Made by a program: the position numbers and the translations under genes | The notes under the pieces: generated by a model | Told to the model about the DNA's origin: nothing | The model's database searches: none | What the model saw: the letters and a program-made list of their open reading frames with translations, nothing else | Part shown: piece by piece, positions 6,009 through 38,158 of the stretch | Layout: each line of letters starts with the position of its first letter | How positions within the stretch are numbered: the first letter of the stretch is position 1 | NCBI GenBank assembly: GCA_945872065.1 | Contig: CAMBYH010000007.1 | Span: forward strand, 1-64,000 | Direction: 5' to 3' | Length of the DNA stretch: 64,000 nucleotides | Source of the DNA: Arsukibacterium tuosuense | GTDB taxonomy: Bacteria > Pseudomonadota > Gammaproteobacteria > Steroidobacterales > GCA-2729495

Positions 6009-7053
6009 GGGATTTTGGCGTGAATGACCCGCGGGCGATCAGTTCCTTTACCGAGTCTTCAAACACCTTTTCGGTTCCTGCATCGTCCATGGTCGGCAGA
6101 TTCTTCGGCCAGATCGTCTGGTCATAGATTTTCCGGTAGATCTCGGTACGCAGGTAGGGCAGCCAGTTCTGGAACCGGGCCTTCTCGCGGTAATTCCGCA
6201 GTGCCTCGATGTTGATCTCGCTGGCGACGTAGCAGTCGTCCACCACGCTGCTCTGGGCCAGGACCTCGCCCTTGTAGCCGACGATCATCGATTTGCCGCC
6301 CAGGGCACCGCCAATAACGGTGGGCGGGTTGCCTGGCATGATGAGTGCGCCGCAGTTTGGAGCCACCATGTAAGCCGTGTTGTCTGCCGCGCGCGCCCGG
6401 TTCTGCACATCCCAGATCTCCCGGGACACCCAGGGCTCAGGCAGGGAGGCGCGGTAGAGAATCTCGGCGCCGTTCATGGCGAAGCCCCGGTAGCTTTCGG
6501 GGAAGGAGCCTTCCACCCCCACGCTGCCGCCGATATTGCCGATCTCCGTCTTGGCCACCGGGAAGAAGGCATCCAGCGTGTCACCGTGGGTCTTCACCCA
6601 CTGGTCGTACACGTCATGGGGGGTGGTGGAGTGCTCGACGAACAGCACCACGTTCTTCCGGTGCTTGTAGATGATCTTGCCCGCAGGATCGAGAATGAAG
6701 ACCGTGTTGAAGAAGCGATCCGGATATTCCGGCAGCTTTTCCTTGAGCTGGCCAATCAGGTAAATGCCGTGCTGCTTTGCCTTGTTGCCGAGGAACTCGG
6801 TTTCCCAGCCCGGTATCTCGGCAGCCATGGTTGCCGTGTACTCGGCTGAGGAGAGGTGCAGGATCTCGTCCGCGAAGCCCTGGATGCAGCCTTCCCCGAG
6901 CGCGATGAGGCGCACCGGCAGCTCCAGGGAGCAGATGTGGCAGACCAGGTCCACCATGTTCCCGATATGATTGAGGTTTTTCTCCACCTCACTGCGCTTC
7001 GCGCAGTGGCGCACGGTGGTCTGCAGGGCAACCGCGATATAGGGATCGATCAT
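6004..7053 (-). CDS. Nitrilase-superfamily protein lacking the catalytic cysteine
   Basis: A 349-residue carbon-nitrogen hydrolase fold. The usual Glu is in LGEG (E54) and the Lys region is IIYKHRKN (K130/K133), but the nucleophile motif, normally xxCYDxxFPE, reads GSVGVEGSFPE, so the expected Cys is Gly179. With that residue gone, normal thioimidate chemistry is not possible, so it is either a pseudoenzyme, a regulatory or scaffold partner, or a subfamily using another nucleophile. The fold is otherwise intact and long, arguing against decay. Its ATG shares one base with the TGA of the upstream UbiD gene (TGATG), so the two are translationally coupled. The TAG stop lies within a REP element. 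Confidence 0.8.
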   Translation of the reverse strand: MIDPYIAVALQTTVRHCAKRSEVEKNLNHIGNMVDLVCHICSLELPVRLIALGEGCIQGFADEILHLSSAEYTATMAAEIPGWETEFLGNKAKQHGIYLIGQLKEKLPEYPDRFFNTVFILDPAGKIIYKHRKNVVLFVEHSTTPHDVYDQWVKTHGDTLDAFFPVAKTEIGNIGGSVGVEGSFPESYRGFAMNGAEILYRASLPEPWVSREIWDVQNRARAADNTAYMVAPNCGALIMPGNPPTVIGGALGGKSMIVGYKGEVLAQSSVVDDCYVASEINIEALRNYREKARFQNWLPYLRTEIYRKIYDQTIWPKNLPTMDDAGTEKVFEDSVKELIARGSFTPKSR

Positions 7054-8462: not shown

Positions 8463-8611
8463 GTGGGCGGTCTCCTGCGAATGCGGTGTCGGCTTGCATT
8501 GTAAGGGGCCGGGGTGGCATGCCGTCACTCCTTACGGCCCGGTGTCCGCAGGTCGGGGTCCGCCCCCGCCGGGAGCTTTGACCCCGGTGGCCCGCGGGCT
8601 GGCTGCCTGCG

Positions 8612-12973: not shown

Positions 12974-14359
12974 ATGAAACGACGGGCAAGGGGCGATTCC
13001 CGACTGGAATTCGCGGGCCGATTTACGCGGGCACTTTCGGGCGTCTTGTGCGCACTCTGCCTGGGGCTTTCCGGGCCACCCGCCCGGTCCGCCGGGACTG
13101 ACTTCGGTGGAGTGCTGAAGCAGGCCCAGGTCCTGCTTGCAGCGGGGCAGGCACGGGAAGCCTGGGAGTTGCTGGCGCCCCTGGAGCTGGACGCGGCAGG
13201 CAGCCCTGACTTCGACTACCTCTACGGTCTTGCCGCTCTCGATAGCGGTCGGCAGGCAGACGCGATTCCCGCCCTGGAGCGGGTGCTGGCCCGGGAACCC
13301 GACTTTGCGGGCGCCCGGATGGAGCTGGCGCGGGCCCGCTTCGAGCTGGGCGACTACCGGTTGGCCAGGGTGCAATTCGATTACCTGCTGACCCAGTCGC
13401 CGCCACCGGCCACCCGGGCAGTCATCGACCGTTACCTGCTGGCGATGGATCAGGGCCTGGTGCCGACGGGTAGCGGCCGCAGCCGCTTCCTGCCCTACGT
13501 CGAGATCGGCTCGGGCTGGGACAGCAACGCGAACGCCTCGACCGACAGCACTACCTTTGGCCCCGTCGATCTCGACTCGAACAACGTGGAGACGGACTCG
13601 ACCTTCGTGGAACTGGCCGGTGGCTTCCAGCACGCTCTGGCCACCGGGCCGGATGGCGTGGTGATCTCCGCCGGCCGGGCGAGCTACCGGTTGAATCCGG
13701 ATGCCCGTTTCGTCGATCAGGCCCTGGTCTCGCTGGGCACGGCGGGCCAGAAGAGCTGGGGCGCTACCCGTGCGACCCTCGGGGCAAGCGGGTACTACAG
13801 CTGGCTCGACGGCAGCCCCCAGGCCTTGAGCGCCGGACTGGACCTGGGCCTCGCCCGCCAGCTGGGCCCGAACTGGGAGCTGGCATCCGTGGCGCGGGTC
13901 GGCAGCCTCCGTTACCAGCAGGACGATCTCGAGATTCTTGACGTCGACCGCTACCTGGGCACTCTGTCGGTGGTCCGCGCAGGCCTCGGCACCGCTGGTG
14001 GCCGGATGGGAGTGTCGGCCCTGTTCGGTGCCGACTCCGCGACGGAGAACGACTCGCCCTACGGCAACAACCGCCTCGGCGGCCGGTTCTTCACCGGCTG
14101 GCCGCTGGGCGCCCGGGGCAACCTGTTCTTCGATGCGGGCTACCTCGTCACCGACTACGACAGTCCGCCGGATTTCTTTGGCGAAGACCGGGAAGACCGG
14201 CAGTGGACGGCGGCTCTGAGCACGGAGTACCGGGACTGGCCGGCCCGGGGCTACAGCCTGGTGCCAACCCTGCGGTTTACCAACACCGACTCCACGGTGT
14301 CCCTGTACGAATACGACCGCCTTGAACTCGGCGTGTACCTGCGCCGGTCGAAGCGCTGA
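12974..14359 (+). CDS. TPR plus outer-membrane beta-barrel protein (Slam/DUF560-like)
   Basis: A 461-residue exported protein: a signal peptide after a long basic start (cleavage near residue 39), TPR-like helical repeats at about 43-165 (AREAWELLAPLE, ALERVLAREPDFAGARMELARA), then a beta-barrel from about 175 with PYVEIGSGWDSNANAST and alternating strands to the C-terminus (YEYDRLELGVYLRR). TPR followed by a DUF560-type barrel is the layout of Slam proteins, which move surface lipoproteins or secreted TbpB-like proteins across the outer membrane. The next gene encodes a protein with a TbpB-like C-terminal region, supporting that idea. It is not a close match that I can name; the Slam assignment is inference from architecture. 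Confidence 0.7.
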   Translation: MKRRARGDSRLEFAGRFTRALSGVLCALCLGLSGPPARSAGTDFGGVLKQAQVLLAAGQAREAWELLAPLELDAAGSPDFDYLYGLAALDSGRQADAIPALERVLAREPDFAGARMELARARFELGDYRLARVQFDYLLTQSPPPATRAVIDRYLLAMDQGLVPTGSGRSRFLPYVEIGSGWDSNANASTDSTTFGPVDLDSNNVETDSTFVELAGGFQHALATGPDGVVISAGRASYRLNPDARFVDQALVSLGTAGQKSWGATRATLGASGYYSWLDGSPQALSAGLDLGLARQLGPNWELASVARVGSLRYQQDDLEILDVDRYLGTLSVVRAGLGTAGGRMGVSALFGADSATENDSPYGNNRLGGRFFTGWPLGARGNLFFDAGYLVTDYDSPPDFFGEDREDRQWTAALSTEYRDWPARGYSLVPTLRFTNTDSTVSLYEYDRLELGVYLRRSKR

Positions 14360-14373
14360 AGGAGGCTCTGGTC

Positions 14374-16011
14374 ATGAAATTCCTCGCTGTCATCCTGTTG
14401 TCCCTCGCTACATTCAGCACAGCCTTCGCCTCGGCGGGCAAGGTGCTGTTCGTTTCGGGGCCCGTGAGCATCGAACGCACGACGGTAGCTGTTGCCCGGG
14501 CGGGCGATGCGGTCGAGCAGGGCGATGTCATCGCCACGGGAGATAACGCCCGGGCGCAACTGCTGATGAATGACGGCGCCCGCATCGCTCTGCGCAGCGG
14601 TTCGCGCTTTCGCATTGACGAGTTTTCCCTGCCAGCTGCTGTCAGTGCCCCCGTCCAGGCCACCACAGCCAATGCCGCCGGGAGGGCGGTGTCGAGCCTG
14701 CTGAAGGGTGGCTTTCGCACCACCTCGGGGGTCATTGGCAAGAACGACCCTGCCGCTTACGCGGTGCGGACCCCGGTGGGGACCCTGGGCATCCGTGGCA
14801 CGCGCTACGTGGCGGTCTGGTGTGCCGGTGACTGCCGCGATGTTCCGGGGCAGAAGCCCGGGGACGTGATTCGGGACGGGCTCTATCTGGGCGTGGAGGA
14901 GGGCGTGGTGGTATTCCAGTACGGAGCGCGTGAGTTCCGTCTGACCGCCGGCCAGAACCTGTTTGTCCCCGCTGACGGTGGCGAACCGGAGTCCCTGGAC
15001 CTGCCACCGGCGTGGTTTGGCCAGGATGGCGCCGGCAAGTTTGAACTCGCTGGCGGCGCCGTCACCGGCAAGGCCAACAACGTCCGGCTGCCGGGCGTGA
15101 ATGAGCGCCGCGGCCCGGCGAGTCAGAATACTTCTGGCCAGGACGGGGAACCGGCAACCGGTGAAGCGGGCGTTGACCAGCCCATCCTGGGTACCTTCGA
15201 CGGGGAGACCATCGACCTGACACCCGGCAGCGTCCGGCCCAACCAGCCCCAGACCGCGGAGCGTCGTGATCAGGCCTGGTCGGTGGCGAATCTCGCGCTG
15301 GCACCGGCGGGCGTCGCCTCCGGCGAAGTGCTGCTCCCCGGCGCATACACGGTAGACGCGGTTGGGAACCTCGTGGGTTTCGACGGCGTGTATCCCACGG
15401 GTTCGATACCCCTGACAGTCGCCTATGCCATCGGGACTGCCACCGGCCTGGAAAGCGCAGGCAATCCTGTGGCGCTACTCCGCTGGGGCCGCTGGTCTGG
15501 CGGGGACATGAGCGTCGCAGTGAACGGGACTCCCGGGGCCACCAGCCTCGCCCAGCAGAGCCTCCACTGGATACTCAGCGGCAACGCGGCCGTGGCGCCG
15601 GTGCTGCCCATTACCGGCAGCGTGACCTATACGCTGGTGGGCGCTACCAGCCCGACGGACGGTGTCGGTAATGTTGGTACGCTGGGCAGCGCCAGCCTGA
15701 CCGCAGATTTCACCAATAACCTGATAGCCACCACTCTTGATGTCAGCATGGCCGGCAACAACTGGATCGCCTCGGGCCTCGGTCCGATTGGCGCCCAAGC
15801 GGGCCTTCCTGCACACCAGTTCGAGGGTGTCTATAACAGCGTGCAGATCAATCCCATCCAGGGCACTGGCACCGGCACGTTCAGCGGCTTCTTCAGTGGC
15901 CCGGCGTCCGGCCCGGGCGGTGCGCCCGCGGGGGCCGGGCTGTCCTTCAACCTCAACGACGATCTGGGACTGATCCAGGTCAACGGCGTGGCGGCATTCG
16001 TCGCCCCATGA
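14374..16011 (+). CDS. FecR-domain secreted protein with TbpB-like C-terminal region
   Basis: A 545-residue protein with a cleavable signal peptide (about 1-20, no lipobox Cys), a FecR domain (about 35-200: GDAVEQGDVIATG, GARIALRSGSRFRID, TPVGTLGIRGTRYVA), a linker, and a C-terminal part (about 320-545) of Gly-rich strands (SVTYTLVGATSPTDGVGNVG, GTFSGFFSGP, VNGVAAF) resembling the eight-stranded barrel of transferrin-binding-protein-B type handles. FecR domains outside sigma-factor systems are common in such surface proteins. AGGAGG precedes the ATG. Fourteen bases separate it from the TPR barrel gene, and its stop overlaps the next start as ATGA. I propose it is the cargo of the TPR barrel protein. 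Confidence 0.75.
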   Translation: MKFLAVILLSLATFSTAFASAGKVLFVSGPVSIERTTVAVARAGDAVEQGDVIATGDNARAQLLMNDGARIALRSGSRFRIDEFSLPAAVSAPVQATTANAAGRAVSSLLKGGFRTTSGVIGKNDPAAYAVRTPVGTLGIRGTRYVAVWCAGDCRDVPGQKPGDVIRDGLYLGVEEGVVVFQYGAREFRLTAGQNLFVPADGGEPESLDLPPAWFGQDGAGKFELAGGAVTGKANNVRLPGVNERRGPASQNTSGQDGEPATGEAGVDQPILGTFDGETIDLTPGSVRPNQPQTAERRDQAWSVANLALAPAGVASGEVLLPGAYTVDAVGNLVGFDGVYPTGSIPLTVAYAIGTATGLESAGNPVALLRWGRWSGGDMSVAVNGTPGATSLAQQSLHWILSGNAAVAPVLPITGSVTYTLVGATSPTDGVGNVGTLGSASLTADFTNNLIATTLDVSMAGNNWIASGLGPIGAQAGLPAHQFEGVYNSVQINPIQGTGTGTFSGFFSGPASGPGGAPAGAGLSFNLNDDLGLIQVNGVAAFVAP

Positions 16012-18416
16012 CGGGAACCCGCTACAGAATTGCCATTATTGGCGGCGGACCCGGTGGCCTCAGTGCTGCCGCGCACGCCGCCCGGCTGGGCATATCCCAT
16101 GTGCTGCTGGAAGGCAGCCCCGCCCACGCCAACACGATCCAGCGGTACCAGAAGGGCAAGCACGTCATGGCAGAGCCCGCTGCTTTGCCCCTGCGGAGCG
16201 ATCTGGAGTTCGACGCCGGTACCCGGGAGGCCATCCTGGGGGCCTGGGAACAGGGCCTGGCCAGGCAGCAGATCAACGTGCGGTACGGTGCCGAGGTCAC
16301 CGGTATTCAGGGTGCCACTCCGGAGTTCTCCATCACTCTCAGGGACGGCACCGCTGTGTCGGCGGAACAGGTCATTCTGGCGATCGGCGTGCAGGGCAAT
16401 CCCCGCCGGATCGGTGTCCCGGGTGAGGACCTGCCGGTCGTGCAGTACACACTGGACGATCCCGATGAGTACCGGGACGAGACCATTGTGGTCATCGGCG
16501 CCGGCGATGCGGCCATCGAGAATGCACTGGCGCTCGCCCGTCAGAACCGGGTGCTGATCGTCAATCGCAGTGACGAGTTCAACCGGGTGAAGGAGGGCAA
16601 CCTCAAGCTGGTCATGAAAGCGATCGAGGACCAGCGCCTTGAGTGCGCCTACAAGTCGTCCTGCACACGCATCGAGCCTGCAAGCGATGGACGGCGCCAT
16701 GTCCTGACGCTGGCTGGCGACCAGGGGGAGTCCCGCATCGAGTGCGACCGGATCATCGCGCGCATTGGCGCTACTCCTCCCCGCCGGTTCGTGGAGAGAT
16801 GTGGCATCGCCTTTCCCGGCCCGGAGCCGGCCGCCCTGCCGGTGCTGTCCTCCCGCTACGAATCCAGCGTGCCCGGGCTCTATGTGATCGGAGCCCTGGG
16901 GGGCTATCCTCTGATCAAGCAGGCCATGAATCAGGGCTACGAGGCGGTTGAGTACGCCCTCGGCCACACCATCGAGCCGGCCGACGAGCCACTGTTGGCC
17001 GCCAAGTTCCAGGTCCTGCCCTTCATCCTTGGCGTGGACGACACGCTGGCGCTGATGCAGGCCAGGATACCCGTGTACTCGGCGATCAACCCGCTGAACT
17101 TCCGGGAGCTGATTCTGGGCAGTCGCATTGCCGCGCCCGCAGCGGGCGAGGTGATCTTCCTCAAGAACGACTACACGAACAGCTTCTTCACCATCCTGGC
17201 CGGCACCGTGGAGATCGAGGTGGGCGAGGAGCGCAAGAGCCGGCTGACGCTCGGGCCGGGCCAGTTCTTCGGGGAGATGAGTCTGCTGTCGGGTCGGCGG
17301 CGCTCGGCGACGACCCGGGCCGGTGCGGGTTGCGTACTGATCGAAGCGCCGCGCCGGGAGATCAACCGGCTGATCAGTTCGGTGGAGGGTGTGCGCCGGG
17401 TTATCGACGAGCACTTTATTGCCCGGGCCATCCAGACCAGCTTTGCTCCGGAGGCCAGCTATGACGACCTCAAGGCCATCGCTGCCAGTGCGAGGCTGCG
17501 CCGCTACAAGCCTGATGAGGTGATCTTCACCGAGGGTGACGAAGCCGACAGCCTGCACCTGATACGGAGCGGCTCCGTGGCGGTAGCCCGGGACATTGGT
17601 GGGCGAGACGTCGTTACTTCCTACGTGGCGGCCGGGAACTATGTGGGGGAAATGGGCCTCGTGAGCCGCACGGGCAGGACTGCCACGGTACGGGCGACTG
17701 TCACTACCGAAACTGTCAGCCTGGACGCCGCGACCTTCCATCAGTTGCTGGAGAAGAATCCGACCCTGCGCGATCAGGTGCAGGCCACGGTGCGCCGCCG
17801 CCTCGCGGAGAACACCCGCATGGCGGGTCAGCCGGAGAGTGGCGACCTTATTTCCTTCCTCATGCAGCAGGGCCTCGGCGAGGCGACGGACGTCCTGCTG
17901 ATCGACGAGACGCTCTGTATCGGCTGTGACAACTGTGAACGGGCCTGCGCCGAAACCCACGCCGGGACGTCCCGGCTCGACCGGGAGGCCGGCCCAACTT
18001 TCGCCCACATCCATGTGCCGACCTCCTGCCGGCACTGCGAGGATCCCCACTGCATGACGGACTGCCCGCCGGACGCGATCGGTCGGGCGCCTAACGGCGA
18101 GGTCTACATCCGTGACAACTGCATTGGCTGCGGCAACTGCGAGCGCAACTGTCCCTACGGCGTGATCCAGATGGCAGCTGCCGCACCGGAAAAGCCGGGG
18201 CTCCTCAACTGGCTGCTGTTTGGTGCCGGCCCCGGACCGGGCCAGGCAAGGCATGGGTCTGACCAGGGCGACAAGGGCCCCAAGAAAGCCGTGAAGTGCG
18301 ATATGTGCCGGGATGTCGGCGGCGGGCCGGCCTGCGTGCGGGCCTGTCCGACCGGAGCCGCAATTCGCATCTCTCCCGAGAAGTTCGTCCAGCTGATCCA
18401 CGACACGACGCGCTGA
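16008..18416 (+). CDS. Flavin oxidoreductase / two cNMP-binding domains / 4x[4Fe-4S] ferredoxin fusion
   Basis: An 802-residue three-part protein. Residues 1-325 form a thioredoxin-reductase-like FAD/NAD(P)H domain with GGGPGG at 12-17 and a second nucleotide motif VIGAGDAAIENA near 162, but no redox CxxC, like YpdA-type reductases. Two cyclic-nucleotide-binding domains follow (about 365-450 and 490-585), each with a phosphate-binding cassette: GEMSLLSGRRRSATTRA and GEMGLVSRTGRTATVRA. From about 637 to 785 is a ferredoxin module of the NrfC/DmsB/HybA kind with sixteen Cys in four groups (CIGCDNCERAC, CRHCEDPHCMTDC, CIGCGNCERNC, CDMC...CVRAC), enough for four clusters. No signal peptide: it is cytoplasmic. 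I infer NAD(P)H oxidation gated by cAMP/cGMP with electrons leaving to the membrane partner encoded three bases downstream. Confidence 0.88.
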   Translation: MTGTRYRIAIIGGGPGGLSAAAHAARLGISHVLLEGSPAHANTIQRYQKGKHVMAEPAALPLRSDLEFDAGTREAILGAWEQGLARQQINVRYGAEVTGIQGATPEFSITLRDGTAVSAEQVILAIGVQGNPRRIGVPGEDLPVVQYTLDDPDEYRDETIVVIGAGDAAIENALALARQNRVLIVNRSDEFNRVKEGNLKLVMKAIEDQRLECAYKSSCTRIEPASDGRRHVLTLAGDQGESRIECDRIIARIGATPPRRFVERCGIAFPGPEPAALPVLSSRYESSVPGLYVIGALGGYPLIKQAMNQGYEAVEYALGHTIEPADEPLLAAKFQVLPFILGVDDTLALMQARIPVYSAINPLNFRELILGSRIAAPAAGEVIFLKNDYTNSFFTILAGTVEIEVGEERKSRLTLGPGQFFGEMSLLSGRRRSATTRAGAGCVLIEAPRREINRLISSVEGVRRVIDEHFIARAIQTSFAPEASYDDLKAIAASARLRRYKPDEVIFTEGDEADSLHLIRSGSVAVARDIGGRDVVTSYVAAGNYVGEMGLVSRTGRTATVRATVTTETVSLDAATFHQLLEKNPTLRDQVQATVRRRLAENTRMAGQPESGDLISFLMQQGLGEATDVLLIDETLCIGCDNCERACAETHAGTSRLDREAGPTFAHIHVPTSCRHCEDPHCMTDCPPDAIGRAPNGEVYIRDNCIGCGNCERNCPYGVIQMAAAAPEKPGLLNWLLFGAGPGPGQARHGSDQGDKGPKKAVKCDMCRDVGGGPACVRACPTGAAIRISPEKFVQLIHDTTR

Positions 18417-18419
18417 GCC

Positions 18420-19310
18420 ATGCACCAGTCAGTTCTGGCCTACGGCAGATCCCGCTACCTGTGGGCGGCCCTGGCGGTTTGCGCCACCGCGATTGGCGCT
18501 TACGTCCTGGATTCACCCGGGGTTCCGCGCAACGGGGGCACCTGGCTGGGCTACACCCTGGGCACCCTCGGCGCGGTCCTGATTCTGTGGCTCATGTCCT
18601 TTGGAATCCGCAAGCGTGCCTATGCGTCCCAGGCGGGGACTGTGCAGGGCTGGCTCTCTGCCCATATCTACCTGGGCGTCAGCCTGCTGGTGGTGGTGAC
18701 GCTGCATACCGGTTTCCAGGTGGGCTGGAATATCCACACGCTGGCCTACGTTCTCCTGTGGATCGTGGTCGCCAGCGGAGTTTTCGGGGTCCTGGTCTAT
18801 CTGCGCTATCCCCGCTTGCTGAGCAGCAACCGCGGCTCCCAGACCAAGGATCAGCTCCTCAGTGATCTGGCCGATCTGGACGCACGCTGCCTCCGCGTGA
18901 CGGCCGGGATGCCTCCGGAATTCGGGGAAGCACTGCTGGCCAACCGGGACCGGACGCTGCTTGGGGGCACCGCCTTTGCCCTGCTGGCCGGCCAGGATCG
19001 TTCACAGATTCTGCTACCGGTAGTGGGCGGCGCGACGGTTCTCTACCAGGCCTTGCCCAACCCGGACCAGTCGGCGCTTCTCGACTGGCTGGGCCAGCGC
19101 CTCGCCGCCAGTAGCGATGGGGGGGTGTCGCGGCAGTTGCAGGAATTGCTCGGTCTGGTGGGTGCCCGGCGAACTCTGCTCGGCCGGCTCCGGCGGGACG
19201 CGCAGCTCAAGGCCTGGCTAGAAGTCTGGCTCTATGTGCACGTGCCGTTGTCCTTCGGGCTGCTGGCTGCGCTGATTGCCCATGTCCTCTCAGTCTTCAT
19301 CTACTGGTAG
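18420..19310 (+). CDS. Cytochrome-b-like integral membrane protein
   Basis: A 296-residue protein with five predicted membrane segments (about 13-31, 42-62, 82-98, 106-130, 272-295) and a soluble loop at 135-265. Histidines lie in or at the ends of helices: H82, H96, H106, H274 and H288, positions suited to ligating one or two b hemes. It has no named family that I recognise. It begins three bases after the iron-sulfur fusion and ends immediately before the FHA-decaheme gene, so it likely connects cytoplasmic electrons (or quinol) to the periplasmic hemes. The heme assignment is inference from His placement; a non-heme anchor protein is the alternative. Confidence 0.65.
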   Translation: MHQSVLAYGRSRYLWAALAVCATAIGAYVLDSPGVPRNGGTWLGYTLGTLGAVLILWLMSFGIRKRAYASQAGTVQGWLSAHIYLGVSLLVVVTLHTGFQVGWNIHTLAYVLLWIVVASGVFGVLVYLRYPRLLSSNRGSQTKDQLLSDLADLDARCLRVTAGMPPEFGEALLANRDRTLLGGTAFALLAGQDRSQILLPVVGGATVLYQALPNPDQSALLDWLGQRLAASSDGGVSRQLQELLGLVGARRTLLGRLRRDAQLKAWLEVWLYVHVPLSFGLLAALIAHVLSVFIYW

Positions 19311-20945
19311 TTGCCTGTGCGTGTCCTGATCCGCTTTCTCCGCGCCGGCCCTGCAGGGGCCGTCGAGCAGAAGGACAAGCTCTACGACGGCGAGTCGGTA
19401 ACGCTGGGGCGCGCCACTGACCAGGTTGTGCAGCTGAAGGACCGGCGCGTCGCGCTCGCCCATGCCCAGATCATCTTGCGCAACGGCCACCCGGTCCTGA
19501 TCAGCCGCGTGCCGGGCGGTGTGCTGGTCAACGGCACCCTCCAGCGCGAGGCGCGGCTGCGGGCTGGCGATGTGGTCACCCTGGGCGCCAATGTACTGCG
19601 GATCCTGCCGCCTCCGGCCGGTTGCGAACTGGCCTTCAGCTTCGAGCTGGACCCGGACGCCCGGCCCCAGAGCGTGGCGCTGGACTTGCCCAGGCTCCGA
19701 CTGGCGGAGCTGGGTTTCGGGAAGCGGCGCTGGTCCTGGGCGTTGTTCCTTGGAGTCTTCCTGCTGGCCCTGGCCATTCCGTCCGCCGGGTTGCGCAGTC
19801 CGCAAATCCAGGAAAGCTTGCGGGCGAGTCTGTTGCCGGATGACCACTGGTGGTCGCCCGGGCCACTCAGTCGGGTGCATGAGGTCCTGGGAACCCGCTG
19901 TGACGCCTGTCATCAGAAGCTGTTCCAGCGGGTCCGGAATGACGCGTGCCTCACCTGTCACGCCAGCAATCTGCATCAGCACTGGCCGCACCCTGGGATT
20001 GGTGCGGCCGCGCCAGAAATGCGCTGCGCCAGCTGTCACGCGGAGCACCACGAGCCCGCCACCCTGGTGCGCCAGGATCCGGCTGTGTGCATCAACTGTC
20101 ACCGGGACCTGAAGGCCCTTGCGCCTGCCACCCTTATTGCCGCGCGGGTGACGGATTTTGCTGCTGACCACCCTGGCTTCGCTGTGCCAGTTACGGACGA
20201 ATCGGGCCTCAAGTTTCCTCACGACGTCCACCTGGCGAAGGACGGTATCCGCTCACCAGTGGGCGATACGGTACTCGGGTGCAAGGACTGCCACGCCCTC
20301 GAGCCCGGCGGCGCGCGCTTTCGTCCGGTACAGATGCAGCGCGACTGCGGTGGGTGTCACCTGCTGGATTTCGACCCAGCATACCCGGAGCGCACTGTGC
20401 CCCACGGCGACGCCAAAGTGATCTCCGGGTTTCTGGTGGACTACTACAGCCGCCGCTATCTGGAGGCCTACGCGGACCCCCTGGCTGTTCCCGGCACTGC
20501 CCGGCGCACCGGGCCGAAGCTGACTGCACCAGAGCGGGAGCGTCTCCTGCGCACGGCCCGGGAACAGTCGGCGATGGTGACGCGGGATCTGTTTGAGCGC
20601 CGCAGCTGTGCCCAGTGCCACGACGTGACGCGGGATATCTCCAAGGTGCCTGACGAATGGCAGGTCAAGGCCGTCAAACTCAGGAGCGCGTGGCTCAAGG
20701 GTGCCACCTTCAACCATGCTGCCCATTCCACGGCGCTGACCAGCTGTGAAAGCTGCCACGGGGCGTTGGATTCAAAAGCAGCATCCGATGTGCTGCTCCC
20801 GGACATCGCCACCTGCCGGGAGTGTCACGCGGGTGGTGACGCCCACGCCACTCCTCCGGACCGTCTCACCAGCACCTGCAATCTGTGTCACGGCTTTCAT
20901 GGCGACGAGAACCCCTTGTGGCAGGCGCGGGGCGTGGCCCCATGA
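19311..20945 (+). CDS. FHA-domain inner-membrane decaheme cytochrome c
   Basis: A 544-residue protein that joins a cytoplasmic forkhead-associated domain (about 20-90: SVTLGRATDQVVQL, HAQIILRNGHP, VNGTLQ, LRAGDVVTLG) to a membrane helix (about 141-162) and a periplasmic multiheme part. Ten CXXCH motifs are present (CDACH, CLTCH, CASCH, CINCH, CKDCH, CGGCH, CAQCH, CESCH, CRECH, CNLCH). FHA domains bind phosphothreonine peptides, so this architecture would let Ser/Thr phosphorylation touch a respiratory cytochrome. The start is a TTG at 19311 abutting the previous stop, or a GTG two codons later; no strong ribosome site decides. Its stop overlaps the lipoprotein start as ATGA. Confidence 0.88.
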   Translation: MPVRVLIRFLRAGPAGAVEQKDKLYDGESVTLGRATDQVVQLKDRRVALAHAQIILRNGHPVLISRVPGGVLVNGTLQREARLRAGDVVTLGANVLRILPPPAGCELAFSFELDPDARPQSVALDLPRLRLAELGFGKRRWSWALFLGVFLLALAIPSAGLRSPQIQESLRASLLPDDHWWSPGPLSRVHEVLGTRCDACHQKLFQRVRNDACLTCHASNLHQHWPHPGIGAAAPEMRCASCHAEHHEPATLVRQDPAVCINCHRDLKALAPATLIAARVTDFAADHPGFAVPVTDESGLKFPHDVHLAKDGIRSPVGDTVLGCKDCHALEPGGARFRPVQMQRDCGGCHLLDFDPAYPERTVPHGDAKVISGFLVDYYSRRYLEAYADPLAVPGTARRTGPKLTAPERERLLRTAREQSAMVTRDLFERRSCAQCHDVTRDISKVPDEWQVKAVKLRSAWLKGATFNHAAHSTALTSCESCHGALDSKAASDVLLPDIATCRECHAGGDAHATPPDRLTSTCNLCHGFHGDENPLWQARGVAP

Positions 20946-22918: not shown

Positions 22919-24680
22919 GTTTCTTCTTTTCAGTTTCCTGTTGTCCGGGACGTGCCTGGCGGGCGCGGGTGTGGCAGGGGAGCACTGTCCGGCCGAGACG
23001 CCTGTCGATCCGGACCGGCTCCGCCCTGGCGAACAAGTGCAACCCTTTGTCCCGACCCCGTGCAATCCTGCCGCTCTCCCGCTGCTCCCGGAGGCTGTGC
23101 CGCCGGCCTACACCGCCTACCCCGATCGCTGGCGCCTGGTCGATGTGCTGGGCTATGCCAATAACCTGTGGAATCCCTACCGGGGAAACAACTGGCTGAA
23201 GGGCGACCGCCCGGCCTTTGGCAAGGACTGGTTTGTGAGTCTCACGGGCATATCCGATACGGTGGTGGAACCGCGGCGCTTTCCCGTACCAGTCGGCGGC
23301 CCGGTCACGGAGAATCCCGGCAGTCTTGATGTCCTCGGTGAAGGTCAGCAGCTGGTACTGGCGGAAACAATTCTTCTGGAGGGAGTCCTTTACAAAGGGG
23401 ACACCGTCTTCATGCCGCCCGAGTGGGAGTTCCGGATCATTCCGGCCTTCAACGTCAATTACGCCCGGTCCGAAGAGCGGGGCTTCCTGCAGGCGCCCGC
23501 CGATGCGAGTACGACGCGGCGGGATGCCACGGTTGCCCTGCAGGGCCTTTTCGTTGACCGGCATCTCCGGGATGTTTCAGCGAACTACGATTTCGATTCC
23601 CTGCGCGTGGGTATCCAGCCGTTCACGGCGGACTTTCGCGGCTTTCTGTTCCTCGACAGTCCGGTCGGCGTCCGGCTCTTCGGGAACCGGCAGAACAACC
23701 GCTATCAGTACAACCTGGCCTGGTTCCGGCGCCTCGACAAGGACACCAATAGCGGACTCAATGCCATTCTTGAGGACGGGCTACCGAGTATCCGCAGTGA
23801 CGACGTCTTTGTGGCTAACCTGTATGCCCAGGATCTGCCGGTTCCAGGCTTCACGTCCCAGGTGATTGCGGCCTATAACCGTAACCGGGAGTCCGACGAT
23901 GTGCAGTACGATGACAACGGTTTTATTCAGCGGCCAGCTTCGATCGGGATCGAGTTGGGCAGGGACTACGATGTCGTCTATCTGGGCTACAACGGTGATG
24001 GTCATTTCGATGAGTTCAACCTGAGCATCTCGGCCTATGGGGCGGTTGGGGATGAGACGCGCAGCACCTTCACGACCGCCGGTGGCGACATCCGGGCCTT
24101 CTTTCTGGCTGCGGAAGTGTCCAGGGACTTCGACTGGATCCGCCCACGCCTGTCAGCACTCTACGCCAGCGGCGATGACGATCCCTTCGACGGCACCGCC
24201 GAGGGGTTTGACGCGATCTTTGAGAACCCTCTGTTTGCCGGCGCCGACACCAGCTTCTGGATTCGCCAGCCCGTGCCGCTGATTGGCGGTGGGCGCGTGG
24301 GCTTGTCGGGACGCAACGGGATACTCAACTCCCTGCGGTCCTCCAAGGAATTCGGGCAGTCCAACTTCAGTAATCCGGGCACCGTACTCCTGGGACTCGG
24401 CGCCGACCTGGACCTGTCGCCGCAATTGCGCCTGAGTGGCAACGCCAATGAGCTCTGGTTTGCCGATACCACCACCGTGGAAGTGGCGCGGAATCAGGGT
24501 GGAATTGACGAGCACCTCGGGCTCGACTTGTCTCTGGCCCTGACCTGGCGGCCGCTGGCCATTCAGAACATCGTCTTCCGGTTATCCGCGGCGGCGCTGA
24601 TTCCGGGCAAGGGTTACGAGCAGCTGTATGGCGATGAAACAGCCTACTCGATTCTGGGCAACCTGGTGCTGACGTACTGA
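22905..24680 (+). CDS. Outer-membrane beta-barrel protein of the cytochrome locus
   Basis: A 591-residue exported protein (signal peptide about 1-24) with a short Pro-rich, Cys-containing N-terminal part and a long run of alternating amphipathic strands ending in LGNLVLTY with a terminal Tyr, as in outer-membrane porins. Strand-rich repeats such as FNVNYARSEERG, YQYNLAWFRRL and FNLSISAYGAVG support a barrel of 16 or more strands. It starts at a GTG (22905) 14 bases inside the previous gene. Lying between two decaheme genes, it is the natural candidate for the porin sheath of a porin-cytochrome conduit, although I see no clear match to MtrB or PioB. Alginate-export-type barrels are another possible relative. 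Confidence 0.75.
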   Translation: MVGSRFLLFSFLLSGTCLAGAGVAGEHCPAETPVDPDRLRPGEQVQPFVPTPCNPAALPLLPEAVPPAYTAYPDRWRLVDVLGYANNLWNPYRGNNWLKGDRPAFGKDWFVSLTGISDTVVEPRRFPVPVGGPVTENPGSLDVLGEGQQLVLAETILLEGVLYKGDTVFMPPEWEFRIIPAFNVNYARSEERGFLQAPADASTTRRDATVALQGLFVDRHLRDVSANYDFDSLRVGIQPFTADFRGFLFLDSPVGVRLFGNRQNNRYQYNLAWFRRLDKDTNSGLNAILEDGLPSIRSDDVFVANLYAQDLPVPGFTSQVIAAYNRNRESDDVQYDDNGFIQRPASIGIELGRDYDVVYLGYNGDGHFDEFNLSISAYGAVGDETRSTFTTAGGDIRAFFLAAEVSRDFDWIRPRLSALYASGDDDPFDGTAEGFDAIFENPLFAGADTSFWIRQPVPLIGGGRVGLSGRNGILNSLRSSKEFGQSNFSNPGTVLLGLGADLDLSPQLRLSGNANELWFADTTTVEVARNQGGIDEHLGLDLSLALTWRPLAIQNIVFRLSAAALIPGKGYEQLYGDETAYSILGNLVLTY

Positions 24681-24682
24681 GT

Positions 24683-27600
24683 ATGAGGATGGAATCGCGG
24701 CTGAAGCCGCTCCTACTGGTAGTGCTCGCGACCGTGGCGCAGGCGTCGCCGGAAGAGCCGGCTGTGGAACGAGGCTGGGTAAGCGCGCCGGCAGCGCCGA
24801 AATCCCAGCCCGCTGCAGCGGCGGACCGCAAGAGTGCAGGATGCCTCGACTGTCACACCCGGACGGACCAGCCGACGATGCACGCGAGCCCTGCGGTAGT
24901 GCTGGGCTGTGCCGACTGTCATGGCGGTGACGCTGCCGTCCGGCGGTCATCAGTAATCCTCGATAAGACAGAGCCTTATGAGTTATTGCTAAGGCAGGCT
25001 CACATTCTGCCCCGCTACCCGGAGGCCTGGGCAAAGCAGGGCAGCGCCAACCCGATCCGCAGCTACACGCTGCTGAACCGGGAAGCCCCCGAGTTCATCC
25101 GCTTCATCAACCCCGGGGACTACCGGATCGCCCGGGAGTCCTGCGGCAGCTGCCACCTGCCAGTGATCGAGGCAGCAGAGCGCAGCCTGATGGCGACGAA
25201 CGCGATGTTCTGGGGTGGCGCGGCCTATAACAACGGGATACTGCCTCTCAAGAACTATGTCCTCGGCGAGGGCTACACCCGGGAGGGGCAACCAGCCATC
25301 CTGAACAGCGCACCTCTGGACACGCTGGGTCTTACGCCCGAGCAGGCGCAGGACCGGGGCGTGCTGACCAGGCTTTACCCGCTGCCCCGGTGGGAAAACC
25401 TGCAGCCGGCCGATGTCTTCCGGGTCTTCGAGGACGGCGGGCGCAATGTGCTCAACACGTTCCCTGAAACCGGCATTCCCAATGCACTCGGCCAGCTGCA
25501 GCGTCTCGAGGAGCCGGGCCGCCCGGATGTGAAACAGTCCAGCCGCGGTCCTGGGACTGGCGCGCGCATCGCTGTGCCGGTCCTCAACATCCACAAGACC
25601 CGGCTGAACGACCCGCTGATGTGGTATCTCGGGACCAACGACCAGCCGGGCGACTACCGGTCGTCGGGCTGCTCCAGCTGTCATGTGGTGTACGCGAACG
25701 ACCGCAATCCGTTTTCGGCCAGTGTCTACGCAGCTGCAGGCCATCGGGGGCTTACCCAGACCACAGATCCAACCATTTCCCAGGACCAGAGTGGCCACCC
25801 GATCCGGCACGCCTTCTCCCGGTCCATTCCCACCAGTCAGTGCATGACCTGCCACATGCACCAGCCCAACATGTTCATGAACTCCTTCCTCGGCTACACG
25901 ATGTGGGACTACGAGTCCGACGCGCCGGCCATGTGGCCTGCCGAGCAGCAGTACCCGGACGCGGAGCAGATGCGCAAGGTGCTGGACAGGAATCCGGAAG
26001 GGGCTGCGCCAAGGGGCAAATGGGCCGACGAGGACTTCCTCGCCCGCGTCTCGGAGCTGAATCCGCAACTGAAGGACACCCAGTTCGCCGACTATCACGG
26101 GCACGGCTGGAACTTCCGCGGGGTCTTTAAACGTGACCGGAAGGGCAATCTGCTGGACAAGGACGGTGCCCTTGTCACCCCTGACGATCCGCAGAAGTGG
26201 GGCAAGGCGGTACACATGCAGTCCGTGCACGTGGATGCCGGTATGCAGTGTGTGGACTGCCACTATGCACAGGATGCCCACGGTACGGGGCACCTCATGG
26301 CCGAGGTGGCTCAGGCCGTAGAGATCGACTGCAAGGATTGCCACGGTACGACCCGCGCCTACCCGACGCTGCGCACATCGGGCCCTGCGTCGCCACCTGC
26401 TGGCACCGATCTCAGCACCCTGCGGAATCCGGACGGCCGCAAGCGCTTCGAGTGGCGGGGTGAAGTCCTCATCCAGCGCTCGGCTGTTGACCCGGAGCTC
26501 GAGTGGCAGGTCTCCCTCGTCAAAGCGTCGGTCACGCCCGGTAACGCGGGGTACAACCAGAAGGCAGCGCGCGCGAAGCTGATGTCGCGCGATACGCAGA
26601 CCCAGCGTTACGGTACCGATGTGGCCTGGGACCAGCTCGCCCACAACGACGACGAACTGGAGTGCTACACCTGTCACACCTCCTGGACTACCAGTTGCGG
26701 CGGCTGCCACCTGCCCATCGAGGCCAACTGGAAGACCGAGCGTCACCGGCCCGAAGGGGGCGCGTCCCGCAACTATGCAACCTACAACCCGCAGGTCGCC
26801 CGGGAGGAGATCTTCATGCTGGGCCGTCGCGGTCCCGCCGAGGGCAACAAGATTTCTCCCGTGCGCTCGTCCTCCGCTCTGGTGCTGTCCTCCACCAACG
26901 CCAACCGTGAGCGCATCTACGTGCAGCAGCCTCCGGTCTCCGCCTCGGGCTACAGCTCCCAGGCCATGAACCCCCACTATCCCCACACGGAGCGGAAGAC
27001 GGAGACCAAGGTGTGCTCGGACTGCCACCTGAGTGCCGCCGGAGACAACAACGCCATCCTCGCCCAGACGCTGGGGCAGGGGACCCAGTTCATCAATTTT
27101 CTCGGGCTTAACGCCTGGGTCGGTGAGGAGCGGGCGGTCAGCGCGGTGCAGGTCACCGAGTGGGAGGAGCCCCAGGCAGTAATCGGCAGCTACCTCCAGC
27201 GCTACGCCTACCCGGACTTCTACGCGGCACATCAGAAGCGGGGCATGGTGTTGCCGGTCATGGAGTCCCGCCGGTCCGGTCCCGCGGAGTGCCTGCAGTT
27301 GCGTGGCGAGTATCTCTACACGGCAGAGCGCGGCAAAGGGTTTCGCGTCTACGACGTGGCCGGGATCGCCAACAAGGGGCTCAGCCAGAAGATCCTGACG
27401 GGACCTTTCGGGCCGCTGGGGCAGGACACCCACGTGGCCACGGCCGACGCCACCTGCGTAGCACTCGCCACCACCCAGCCCGTGCATCCGCCCCGCAATG
27501 AGGGCGAGCTGATGCGGAAGGATAATCTGGAGCAGCCTTTTGCCTCGATCTACAACTACGCGGTGATCACCGATAGTGTCGAGGGTCTGATCCTCGTCGA

Positions 27601-28402
27601 TATCAATACGCTGGCAGACGGTGAGTTCCGCAATAACTTTCTGCGCCGCGCACTGACCTGGAATGCGGACGGAGTACTACGGGGCGCCCGTCACGTGACG
27701 GTGGCGGGAAGCACACTGTACGTCACCACGCCCGCGGGTGTCGCCGTGGTGGATGTGACCACGGCACTGCAGCCAAAGCTGCTGACGGTCGTGCCATTGC
27801 CTGGCGCGCGAGCCAGCATGCAGCAGTTCCGCTATCTGTTTGTGACCGATGGTGAGGGGCTGAAGGTCATCGACATTACGCGGCCTGCCCAGGCGCAACT
27901 CGTGGCCGGCGCGGTCGTGCCCCTGAAAGACGCCCACAAGATCTTCGTCTCCCGCACCTATGCTTTTGTGGCAGCCGGGGCGGAGGGACTAGCGATCATT
28001 GATGTGGAGAGACCGGAAGCACCGAGGCTCTACCAGCTCTTTAACGACGGTGGCAACCTGCGGGATGTGCGGGATGTGGTCGTCGCCTCGACCAACGCCT
28101 CGCTGTTTGCCTACGTTGCCGACGGTGCAGACGGTCTCAAGGTGCTGCAGCTGACCGCGCCCGACACCCAGCCAAACTTCTACGGCTTCAGCCCGGAGCC
28201 AAAGCCCCGGGTCATTGCCCGGCGCACTACCAGCTCCCCCGCGCTGGCGCTCTCCCGGCCCCTCGAGCGGGACCGGGCGGTCGACGAAAGCGGGGACCAG
28301 GTGGCGGTGTTTGGCCGGCGGGGTTCCCGGCCGTTCCAGGCCGGCGAGATGCAGCGGCTGTATCTCAACGACCAGCTGCTGCCCTGGGTCGTCCGCGACT
28401 GA
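24683..28402 (+). CDS. Exported decaheme cytochrome c with LVIVD beta-propeller
   Basis: A 1239-residue protein with a signal peptide (1 to about 22), a multiheme region (about 50-790) with ten CXXCH motifs (CLDCH, CADCH, CGSCH, CSSCH, CMTCH, CVDCH, CKDCH, CYTCH, CGGCH, CSDCH), and a C-terminal region (about 860-1160) of LVIVD-type repeats (GFRVYDVAG, GLILVDINT, GVAVVDVTT, GLKVIDITR, GLAIIDVER, GLKVLQLT) that should fold as a beta-propeller. Wide spacing between hemes and the propeller suggest an enzyme or a surface-exposed terminal reductase rather than a simple wire. It starts two bases after the barrel gene. Residues 5-11 of the signal peptide are encoded by a REP palindrome. Confidence 0.88.
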   Translation: MRMESRLKPLLLVVLATVAQASPEEPAVERGWVSAPAAPKSQPAAAADRKSAGCLDCHTRTDQPTMHASPAVVLGCADCHGGDAAVRRSSVILDKTEPYELLLRQAHILPRYPEAWAKQGSANPIRSYTLLNREAPEFIRFINPGDYRIARESCGSCHLPVIEAAERSLMATNAMFWGGAAYNNGILPLKNYVLGEGYTREGQPAILNSAPLDTLGLTPEQAQDRGVLTRLYPLPRWENLQPADVFRVFEDGGRNVLNTFPETGIPNALGQLQRLEEPGRPDVKQSSRGPGTGARIAVPVLNIHKTRLNDPLMWYLGTNDQPGDYRSSGCSSCHVVYANDRNPFSASVYAAAGHRGLTQTTDPTISQDQSGHPIRHAFSRSIPTSQCMTCHMHQPNMFMNSFLGYTMWDYESDAPAMWPAEQQYPDAEQMRKVLDRNPEGAAPRGKWADEDFLARVSELNPQLKDTQFADYHGHGWNFRGVFKRDRKGNLLDKDGALVTPDDPQKWGKAVHMQSVHVDAGMQCVDCHYAQDAHGTGHLMAEVAQAVEIDCKDCHGTTRAYPTLRTSGPASPPAGTDLSTLRNPDGRKRFEWRGEVLIQRSAVDPELEWQVSLVKASVTPGNAGYNQKAARAKLMSRDTQTQRYGTDVAWDQLAHNDDELECYTCHTSWTTSCGGCHLPIEANWKTERHRPEGGASRNYATYNPQVAREEIFMLGRRGPAEGNKISPVRSSSALVLSSTNANRERIYVQQPPVSASGYSSQAMNPHYPHTERKTETKVCSDCHLSAAGDNNAILAQTLGQGTQFINFLGLNAWVGEERAVSAVQVTEWEEPQAVIGSYLQRYAYPDFYAAHQKRGMVLPVMESRRSGPAECLQLRGEYLYTAERGKGFRVYDVAGIANKGLSQKILTGPFGPLGQDTHVATADATCVALATTQPVHPPRNEGELMRKDNLEQPFASIYNYAVITDSVEGLILVDINTLADGEFRNNFLRRALTWNADGVLRGARHVTVAGSTLYVTTPAGVAVVDVTTALQPKLLTVVPLPGARASMQQFRYLFVTDGEGLKVIDITRPAQAQLVAGAVVPLKDAHKIFVSRTYAFVAAGAEGLAIIDVERPEAPRLYQLFNDGGNLRDVRDVVVASTNASLFAYVADGADGLKVLQLTAPDTQPNFYGFSPEPKPRVIARRTTSSPALALSRPLERDRAVDESGDQVAVFGRRGSRPFQAGEMQRLYLNDQLLPWVVRD
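24695..24716 (-). repeat. REP-type palindrome, copy 3, inside a signal peptide
   Basis: GCGGCTGAAGCCGC (24697-24710) flanked by TC and TCCTAC matches the same REP class in inverse orientation. It lies within the coding sequence of the decaheme-LVIVD protein and encodes SRLKPLLL, the basic-to-hydrophobic transition of the signal peptide. Confidence 0.7.
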
Positions 28403-28427
28403 GGGCCGGTGCGCTAAGCTCCCGGCC

Positions 28428-29087
28428 ATGACTCTCGACCGCCTCGCACCCTGGTCCGCTGCCGTCATTGCGGCGGCCTTCGCCATGCACAACCTCAACG
28501 GCGCCTGGATCGAGCCCCGCTACCTGGGCTTTGGCAGCTACGCGGATTACGCGGACCTGGCCAAACTGCAGGCAGCCAGCCGGGCCTGGCCCTGGTTGCT
28601 GTCAGGAATCGGCCATGTGGCCAGTGGCTTTGCGGTGGTCGTCCTGGGGCTCGCGACATGGCGCCGCTACCAGGCACGACTGCCCGAGGCTGCGCTGGTG
28701 GCGATGGCTGCGGCGCTCCTTGCTGGTACCGGGTTCCTGCTGGTGGGCATTTCCCACGTCATTGGCCGGCAGACGCTGTTCCTGCTGGCGGACGCCAACT
28801 CCAGCGCGCTGCGGGATGTGGCCTACACCGCGGCGACGGTAATCCGCATCTGGGTAAACGCACTCGCCCAGATCGGCCTCGGCTGGTTTACGGTGCAACT
28901 CGCCTGGTGCGGCCGCAAGACCGGTGAGCTGCCCCGCAGTTTCATCGGGTTCAGCTTTGTCTCCGGTGCCTGCGGCCTGCTGATGGCAGTGGCCTACATT
29001 CCCGTCTACCTCTACACGGTGCTCATCTGGGCAGCATGGCTGGCGGTTGCGTGGCCCCGGCGCCAGGCTGGGGCGGCGCGTGCCTGA
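28428..29087 (+). CDS. Multi-pass membrane protein of unknown function
   Basis: A 219-residue protein beginning at the ATG 25 bases after the decaheme gene; a longer in-frame reading would overlap that gene and is not supported. About six hydrophobic segments are visible (roughly 8-24, 55-75, 85-110, 125-145, 158-176, 184-206). One segment contains a His (GISHVIGRQTLFLLAD) that could bind a cofactor, but no family is recognised. It belongs to the same run as the cytochrome genes and its stop overlaps the next reading frame, so it is probably co-expressed. A quinone- or heme-interacting membrane subunit is possible but not shown. Confidence 0.65.
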   Translation: MTLDRLAPWSAAVIAAAFAMHNLNGAWIEPRYLGFGSYADYADLAKLQAASRAWPWLLSGIGHVASGFAVVVLGLATWRRYQARLPEAALVAMAAALLAGTGFLLVGISHVIGRQTLFLLADANSSALRDVAYTAATVIRIWVNALAQIGLGWFTVQLAWCGRKTGELPRSFIGFSFVSGACGLLMAVAYIPVYLYTVLIWAAWLAVAWPRRQAGAARA

Positions 29088-29922
29088 CGCAGGGCTGCGC
29101 TGGCGCGTGCCTGACGTGCCTGGCGTCTTCGAGGCGGCCAGCGCCTGGCGGCATCCCCAGCCCTTTCTCGAGGTGGTACGCCAGACCTATGGCCATCTGC
29201 TGCTGGAGAGTCTGGGCGGCACCTACAGCTGGACTATTCGCCCCGCCAATCGCGACCAGTTCCGGCGTGCGGGCCTCACCACCCTGGGTGAGTACATCGA
29301 CCGCTTTCTGCAGGATGATCCGCGGCCGTTGCCCTACCTGGCCCACGTGTCAGTGCATCGCAACCTGCCGGCCCTGAAGCGCTACCTGGTACCGCCGCCG
29401 GAGTTCGGTCCGAACTGGGTGGACGAGCCCCGCTATGACCGCTGGAGTGGGCCGGAGATTTATGTGGGCCGCCGCGGCTGCTACTTTGCGGGACTCCATG
29501 TGGACCACTGCAACGTGCACGTGGGGTTCGTGCAGCTGTCCGGTCGCAAACGCTTCACGGTGTTCCCGCCTGCTGACGGTCAGTACCTCTACACCTGGCG
29601 AGGCGTCCAGTTTCCTTATCAGCGGCGCAACTCGGCAGTGCGGCTGTTCCAGCCGGACTGGGCGGAGCGCTGGCCTGACGCCTGCAAGGCCAGCCCCAGG
29701 GTCATTGACGTCGGGCCGGGACAGGGGCTCGTTCTGCCCGCGAACTGGTGGCATGTCACCCAGGTGCTGGAGGCGGGAGTCACGTGGAATGTCCGCATCG
29801 TCAACCACACGAACATCGCGCCGTTTATCCGGGAGCACCTGCTGGGTATTCCCCGGGGTATCGGTTTGGCTGCGAGTCGTCTGCGGGACAGAGTCGCGGG
29901 TCGCAAGCCGGCGTGGCCTTAG
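29080..29922 (+). CDS. Cupin-like / JmjC-type Fe(II) oxygenase-fold protein
   Basis: About 280 residues with a cupin_8/JmjC-like core. The metal-binding pattern is present: HVDH in FAGLHVDHCNVHVGFVQL (HxD), and a distal His in NWWHVTQV, as in 2-oxoglutarate-dependent protein hydroxylases and tRNA wybutosine-type hydroxylases. YEIVGR-like residues are replaced by YVGRRGCYF. The start is uncertain: GTG at 29080 overlaps the previous stop by eight bases, a TTG at 29047 would overlap more, and a GTG at 29107 is a shorter option. It is last in the long run; whether it modifies one of the locus proteins is unknown. The fold call is good, the substrate unknown. Confidence 0.75.
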   Translation: MPDAGLRWRVPDVPGVFEAASAWRHPQPFLEVVRQTYGHLLLESLGGTYSWTIRPANRDQFRRAGLTTLGEYIDRFLQDDPRPLPYLAHVSVHRNLPALKRYLVPPPEFGPNWVDEPRYDRWSGPEIYVGRRGCYFAGLHVDHCNVHVGFVQLSGRKRFTVFPPADGQYLYTWRGVQFPYQRRNSAVRLFQPDWAERWPDACKASPRVIDVGPGQGLVLPANWWHVTQVLEAGVTWNVRIVNHTNIAPFIREHLLGIPRGIGLAASRLRDRVAGRKPAWP

Positions 29923-38136: not shown

Positions 38137-38158
38137 GAGCCGCAGCTATACTCGGGGC

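Follow-up and report, generated by a model that had tools for sequence, protein, structure and literature searches.

What function is served by ten closely packed genes that bring together redox cofactors, cyclic-nucleotide sensors and an outer-membrane barrel? These genes occupy positions 12,974–29,922 of the 64,000-nucleotide stretch of Arsukibacterium tuosuense DNA analysed here (the window; contig CAMBYH010000007.1, from an assembly of 2.71 Mb in 130 contigs). A sequence-only reading had proposed that they form one signal-gated system for extracellular electron transfer (EET). Overall, our analysis favours, by a modest measure, a cyclic-nucleotide-gated, NAD(P)H-linked electron chain spanning the envelope and related by descent to the predicted porin-cytochrome conduits PCC3 and PCC4. 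Its core consists of six genes, named C to H below, joined by a multiheme cytochrome, TH, and a CHASE2 nucleotide cyclase, which belong to the system and lie outside the interval (38,159–39,502 and 10,633–12,876, respectively; all genes discussed are on the plus strand).

The claim of ten co-directional, nearly abutting genes was borne out. All ten open reading frames are present, and the gaps between them, after start correction, are 14, -4, 3, 0, -4, -14, 2, 25 and -41 bases. Positions 12,974–28,402 form a tight operon that encodes a Slam barrel, a FecR protein and then C-D-E-F-G-H. Pfam detected the domains SlipAM, FecR, Pyr_redox with two cNMP_binding and 4Fe-4S, FHA with cytochrome c7/c3, HbpS-like, and LVIVD with cytochrome c3, and NCBIfam agreed on the domain content. 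The order C-D-E-F-G-H was the same, up to contig ends, in eight regions fetched from genomes of the same taxonomic order. Scanning named public genomes with an alignment of H revealed at least 588 related H loci, of which the best 80 were kept. Within these 80, where presence is limited by contig ends, G was found in 78, F in 67, E in 64, C and D in 61 each, and TH in 57. Most loci long enough to show it had the order C-D-E-F-G-H, with or without a following TH, across proteobacterial classes; the median gaps between neighbouring genes ranged from -4 to 26 bases, and G and H were nearly always adjacent. As this arrangement is shared by genomes of one taxonomic order and by dozens among the best 80 loci, C-D-E-F-G-H is a real unit, far beyond chance. 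The check for conserved neighbourhoods proposed with the initial claim thus returned synteny rather than its absence.

The inner part of this unit contains the components expected to carry electrons from the cytoplasm to the periplasm. C (16,008–18,416) combines an NAD(P)H/FAD domain, two cyclic-nucleotide-binding (CNB) domains and ligands for four [4Fe-4S] clusters, and is the proposed electron entry enzyme and cyclic-nucleotide receptor. Its 16 Fe-S cysteines are invariant across 67 homologues. In the same 67 proteins, the first CNB cassette retains Gly in 67, Glu in 66 and Arg in 67, and the second retains Gly in 67, Glu in 51 (Gln in 13) and Arg in 66; the window protein keeps all of these residues in both domains. 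NRSDEFNR, the motif after the second Rossmann strand, resembles the HRR motif of NADPH-dependent thioredoxin reductases, a tentative hint at NADPH. C also carries PF13247 (E-value 3.2e-9), and its gene lies directly upstream of D (18,420–19,310). The histidine-bearing membrane protein noted earlier in the redox set is indeed recognisable as D, a predicted diheme cytochrome b of the inner membrane, with two WX3HX13H motifs (residues 78 and 270) and one SGXXG (119) kept in 68 of 69 homologues; 14 of 20 members match cytochrome b561 (PF01292).

Downstream of D, the E gene (19,317–20,945) starts with GTG at 19,317 in a reading frame that opens at a TTG at 19,311. Its product has a cytoplasmic Forkhead-associated (FHA) domain (PF00498), a single transmembrane helix (residues 143–161) and a periplasmic decaheme cytochrome c part (PF14522), with ten CXXCH motifs in the window protein and in 66 of 70 members. 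TH (PF13435) is predicted to be a periplasmic pentaheme cytochrome, since the alignment of its homologues contains four CXXCH motifs, one invariant CX4CH and five further invariant histidines. In most relatives, the TH gene begins a median of 4 bases before H ends. The window TH, the sole homologue in the genome (E-value 2e-90), is displaced from this usual place. Within 35,632–40,338 it is flanked by two NmrA/NAD-binding genes, and a UbiD-family decarboxylase is encoded upstream of it; the window has another UbiD gene at 7053–8528.

To which known systems is this inner part related? PCC3 and PCC4 are predicted porin-cytochrome conduits whose inner-membrane protein (IMP) carries two WX3HX13H motifs and one SGXXG, and in PCC4 subgroup II a pfam13247 Fe-S protein is encoded upstream of the IMP (PMC5566968). 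D carries these IMP motifs and C corresponds to the upstream pfam13247 protein, and PCC4 shares with our operon a porin and several periplasmic multiheme cytochromes (PMC5566968). One locus, L168 (of the group L168–L170), matches much of the PCC4 description: it encodes a barrel-like protein, an NAD/2Fe-2S protein, a tetraheme cytochrome, a CNB/4Fe-4S protein, an IMP and a decaheme cytochrome. Its succession of tetraheme, CNB/Fe-S protein, IMP and decaheme equals TH-C-D-E, the order also seen in L134, L135 and L138. Unlike PCC4, the operon has an FHA domain on the decaheme, an FAD domain fused to C, a GlcG lipoprotein and the 1239-residue decaheme-propeller protein H, and its heme set is 5/10/10 (TH, E, H) rather than 4/5/10. 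The barrel of the one PCC4-like locus compared shows no BLASTP similarity to G.

The relation to PCC3 is similar in kind. Four loci with weak D relatives (L139–L142) have the published PCC3 layout of an IMP with 21–24-heme and 23–66-heme cytochromes (layout per PMC5566968). D is homologous to their IMPs (hhalign 99.4%, E-value 6e-22), and homology also links the C FAD domain with the FAD/Fe-S flavoprotein encoded divergently next to PCC3 in the loci seen (99.9, E-value 2e-37). PCC3 is heme-dense (medians of 21 periplasmic and 34 extracellular hemes; PMC5566968), whereas the operon has cytochromes of 10, 10 and 5 hemes, and no CNB, FHA, GlcG or propeller domain was found in the PCC3 loci seen. 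In addition, C-D-E-TH can exist without F-G-H, as in a genome with no H match in a class-wide search (G175). Given the homology of D and of the C FAD domain to PCC3 loci, the TH-C-D-E order shared with a PCC4-like locus, and this separability, we place the system by sequence as a sister of PCC3 and PCC4 with a new outer module.

The resemblance to porin-cytochrome systems noted in the sequence-only reading therefore stands for PCC3 and PCC4, and does not extend to the Mtr type. The operon shares with MtrCAB, MtoAB and PioAB the general plan of an inner-membrane entry, a periplasmic decaheme, an outer-membrane barrel and a further decaheme, but its entry runs from NAD(P)H, Fe-S and cytochrome b instead of CymA, and its barrel is modelled as AlgE-like. 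An MtrCAB-type conduit was rejected: E scored 28.3 bits against the DmsE/MtrA model TIGR03508 (cut-off 192.2), and G gave no match to the MtrB/PioB model. Similarly, we rejected ExtM-type selenite reduction, as in the Geobacter ext selenite/tellurite cluster, where H matched the ExtM model over 54 residues, in heme motifs only, with 58 bits against a cut-off of 800.

The same comparison narrows the idea that sensory domains are foreign to known conduits. This does not hold for all porin-cytochrome systems, because the PCC4-like locus has a CNB and 4Fe-4S protein in the same position. Two or three CNB domains are fused to the pfam13247 Fe-S protein at L168:3790–5541 and L169:7223–9043, and cyclic-nucleotide sensing may be general to the PCC4-like conduit family. 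The IMP of PCC3 and PCC4 was proposed to face the quinone pool (PMC5566968). PCC3 loci often have an FAD/4Fe-4S flavoprotein gene divergent from or close to them (clear in L141, L142 and L171; short matches in L139), an arrangement suggesting that PCC3 is linked to NAD(P)H and not to quinones alone. The operon likewise points to NAD(P)H:FAD/Fe-S proteins as likely cytoplasmic partners of the PCC3/PCC4 IMP.

The outer module consists of F, G and H. F (20,942–22,918, with an ATG at 20,942) is a predicted lipoprotein with HbpS/GlcG domains (PF03928, 80.5 bits; lipobox LTGC). G (22,905–24,680) was modelled by AlphaFold2 as an outer-membrane beta-barrel of 18 strands, most at high confidence (mean pLDDT 83.7). 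Its best Foldseek match is AlgE (E-value 1e-17), and OprD/Occ channels are also among the nearest structures; the NCBIfam MtrB/PioB model gave no match. The large outer-membrane barrel claimed earlier is thus predicted to be a barrel, of the AlgE/OprD type with 18 strands and not of the MtrB type.

H (24,683–28,402) is a predicted exported decaheme cytochrome of 1239 residues with a C-terminal LVIVD beta-propeller. All 86 members have ten CXXCH motifs (the window protein has about 124 residues per heme), and 13 further histidines are invariant, enough for bis-His ligation at all ten hemes. Structure matches fall mainly on the propeller, from about residue 660 of the model onward, with 1l0q, an archaeal surface-layer protein, as the best (Z 27.1, 275 residues, 2.4 A). 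Identity between H and its relatives is 62–65% over the full length, and the mean pairwise identities are 0.65 for H, 0.57 for F and G, 0.55 for C, 0.46 for D, 0.41 for TH and 0.34 for E. As G is small and H is the most conserved component, we take H to be a terminal protein with a specific substrate, located at the outer membrane on either of its faces. Two H genes elsewhere are unusual: one gammaproteobacterial genome (G193) has two full H genes on separate contigs (C12 and C14), and in another (G416 C6, L137) the frame of H runs open over 2187 codons, which may reflect a fusion or an artefact.

The genes flanking the operon bear on how the chain may be controlled. The CHASE2 cyclase in the window (PF05226, PF00211) has the class III active-site motifs FSDVRGF, KYMGD and GDTVN and is the likely source of cAMP. 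A CHASE2 cyclase is upstream of the operon in the window, L018, L020 and L021, downstream of it in L022, and also near the Sphingobium operon, and a soluble class III cyclase is beside E in L135. A metallophosphoesterase is encoded in the cluster in 11 alphaproteobacterial loci and adjoins E in those checked; for the two that were scanned, the best NCBIfam matches were cyclic-nucleotide phosphodiesterases, below cut-off. Immediately after TH, 24 loci encode a PP2C phosphatase, and in 20 loci a tail-anchored double-FHA protein follows TH, with the canonical phosphothreonine motif in 19 of them. L138 has a Ser/Thr kinase gene and a PP2C gene (above the curated cut-off) beside E. Which cyclic-nucleotide or phosphorylation genes adjoin this redox operon therefore differs between lineages.

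Second-messenger gating of the chain, as the sequence-only reading had proposed, is supported at the sequence level, because the Gly and Arg (and mostly the Glu) of the CNB cassettes are kept and a cyclase or phosphodiesterase-like gene is repeatedly linked. The suggestion of phosphorylation control fared less evenly. The S-R-x-H phosphothreonine motif of the E FHA domain is present in one of 70 members and lost in the other 69, and the domain is therefore probably a plain protein-contact domain, which speaks against control through E; PP2C, canonical double-FHA and kinase genes do accompany the operon elsewhere. An NADP-specific glutamate dehydrogenase gene, recurrent in gamma- and alphaproteobacterial loci, is compatible with NADPH supply.

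Taken together, the favoured chain would run as follows. Electrons from NAD(P)H would pass through FAD to the four [4Fe-4S] clusters of C, cross the inner membrane via the two b hemes of D, and then move over the ten hemes of membrane-anchored E to the five hemes of periplasmic TH. From there, with the help of the lipoprotein F and the barrel G, they would pass to the ten hemes of H at the outer membrane, where H would serve an extracytoplasmic partner as a terminal redox protein specific for its substrate. The switch would be cAMP from the linked cyclase, binding both CNB domains of C; tuning of the chain in other lineages would fall to a linked phosphodiesterase or to a PP2C/FHA/kinase set. 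The parts, their co-inheritance, their cofactor ligands and the relation to PCC3 and PCC4 can be seen in the sequences and in the gene order, while the flow of electrons, its order and its gating are what we infer from them. Cultured named hosts of the operon (Steroidobacter, Parahaliea, Duganella and Sphingobium) are mostly aerobic heterotrophs, and electrons enter through an enzyme linked to NAD(P)H; we thus judge outward flow, from NAD(P)H to the outside, to be the likelier direction.

Several observations weigh against this chain reaching the cell exterior under such control. With 18 strands, against the 24–32 transmembrane regions reported for MtoB/PioB (PMC5566968), G is probably too small for an MtrAB-style wire or an MtrA-type insert, and a sequence search of the PDB found no relative of it. 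The same PDB searches found none for H and chance matches only for D. The H model has a mean pLDDT of 64.7 overall, with the heme part at low confidence, and neither a surface anchor of H nor an exporter was recognised. The high conservation of H is more typical of an enzyme than of a surface wire. As for the gating, signalling neighbours depend on the lineage, the cyclase alone was recognised near the window operon, and the second CNB domain has the Glu-to-Gln replacement in the 13 homologues counted above. The EET claim therefore holds as far as one conserved system, redox parts in the envelope layers and an NAD(P)H entry to multiheme cytochromes c are concerned; the step over the outer membrane is the weak one, G looking narrow and H enzyme-like.

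In one alternative, the same chain feeds or drains a periplasmic H that reduces or oxidises a specific soluble substrate admitted via G, and no electrons cross the outer membrane. The likeness of G to channels for small substrates and polysaccharides (AlgE, OprD, Occ), the near-constant adjacency of G and H, and the spacing of hemes in H, which does not make a dense wire, all agree with it. So does the conservation of H relative to E, since multiheme cytochromes of Geobacter show raised mutation rates, with lower dN/dS in the enzymatic and porin-complex periplasmic ones (PMC12977616). However, the invariant histidines suffice for bis-His ligation throughout H, so that no open catalytic heme is evident, and the inner-membrane module belongs to predicted EET conduits; the surface-layer protein as nearest structure to the propeller is a further, though weak, point against it. 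We hold a periplasmic enzyme to be possible but, on balance, unlikely.

Reversed flow is a second alternative, in which electrons taken by H from a donor outside the cell (Fe(II), Mn(II) or a reduced organic compound) move inward via D to C and NAD(P)+ or the quinone pool. For PCC3 and PCC4, a role in electron uptake by iron oxidisers has been proposed (PMC5566968), a tabulation in PMC10734462 lists an FHA-annotated 10-heme protein in 27 Gallionellaceae genomes, and one Haliea relative is a metagenome-assembled genome (MAG) labelled Biocath. Reducing NAD(P)+ from such donors would nevertheless be strongly uphill without energy input, and the heterotrophy of most cultured named hosts fits poorly; electron uptake thus seems improbable. 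A role in the assimilation of iron or heme, in which NAD(P)H would drive a reduction at the outer membrane and F and Slam/FecR would handle heme or metals, is very improbable, for although F has HbpS-like domains, D motifs resemble those of ferric reductases (PMC5566968) and a Slam-client pair sits beside the operon in several relatives, the identified recurring flank families of the 80 loci include no TonB-dependent receptor or siderophore gene, and Slam/FecR is missing from most loci.

If the gated chain is the right reading, it may exemplify a wider class. To our knowledge, known electron conduits are controlled mainly by transcription; a CNB receptor fused to the entry enzyme would instead be a direct allosteric gate on the conduit. 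A literature search found no paper on a conduit with such a receptor fused to its entry enzyme. We put forward as a speculative and rather doubtful extension a class of ligand-gated EET: strictly aerobic Proteobacteria would have a conduit driven by NAD(P)H, with an entry enzyme that is itself a cAMP receptor, with electron export switched on the level of the protein by a dedicated pair of cyclase and phosphodiesterase, and with a new substrate-specific outer-membrane multiheme enzyme at its end. The gene set is common in bacteria that respire oxygen, in which a chain of this kind is unexpected, and it is testable, as cultured, non-pathogenic aerobes (Parahaliea, Steroidobacter, Duganella and Sphingobium) carry the operon. 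The literature search found no description of the cluster, the cluster lists of a large survey that reported 440 novel multiheme gene clusters (PMC11475568) not being compared. The gene set is thus widespread, yet apparently undescribed.

The remaining genes of the interval are accessory or not conserved. The Slam-like outer-membrane translocator (12,974–14,359; PF04575, 28.8 bits, cut-off 22) and the FecR protein with a Slam-client-like C-terminal part (14,374–16,011; PF04773, 33.4 bits, cut-off 24; weak slam_lipo match) are confined to a subset of relatives, with Slam in L017, L018, L020 and L021 and the FecR gene additionally in L028, L056 and L067. Genes 9 (a membrane protein, 28,428–29,087) and 10 (Cupin_8, 29,047–29,922) have no counterpart in relatives and were dropped as members. 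Of the ten genes once taken as a single system, C to H remain, genes 9 and 10 are not conserved, and Slam and FecR join in a subset only.

Within lineages, the operon is patchily distributed. Searching with E recovered relatives in 9 of 99 related genomes, the window's included, and in 2 of 8 within the genus. Of 370 gammaproteobacterial genomes, 10 contained H, and D had a strong match (E-value < 1e-60) in 18 of the 397 genomes of a phylum sample; a single family (f211) accounts for half of these. Among the hosts are Parahaliea, Haliea, Steroidobacter, Pseudoteredinibacter and Duganella, and in Sphingobium and Sphingopyxis the genes are carried on megaplasmids. Plasmids typed as conjugative bear the operon, or the TH-F-G-H half of it, in Sphingobium herbicidovorans (pMSHV, L105) and Sphingopyxis indica (pMC4, L106), a route for horizontal spread; in the latter, gdhA and putA are beside it. 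The operon also occurs in MAGs labelled Klebsiella pneumoniae and Bordetella parapertussis (L030, L088 and L093), labels that look misassigned.

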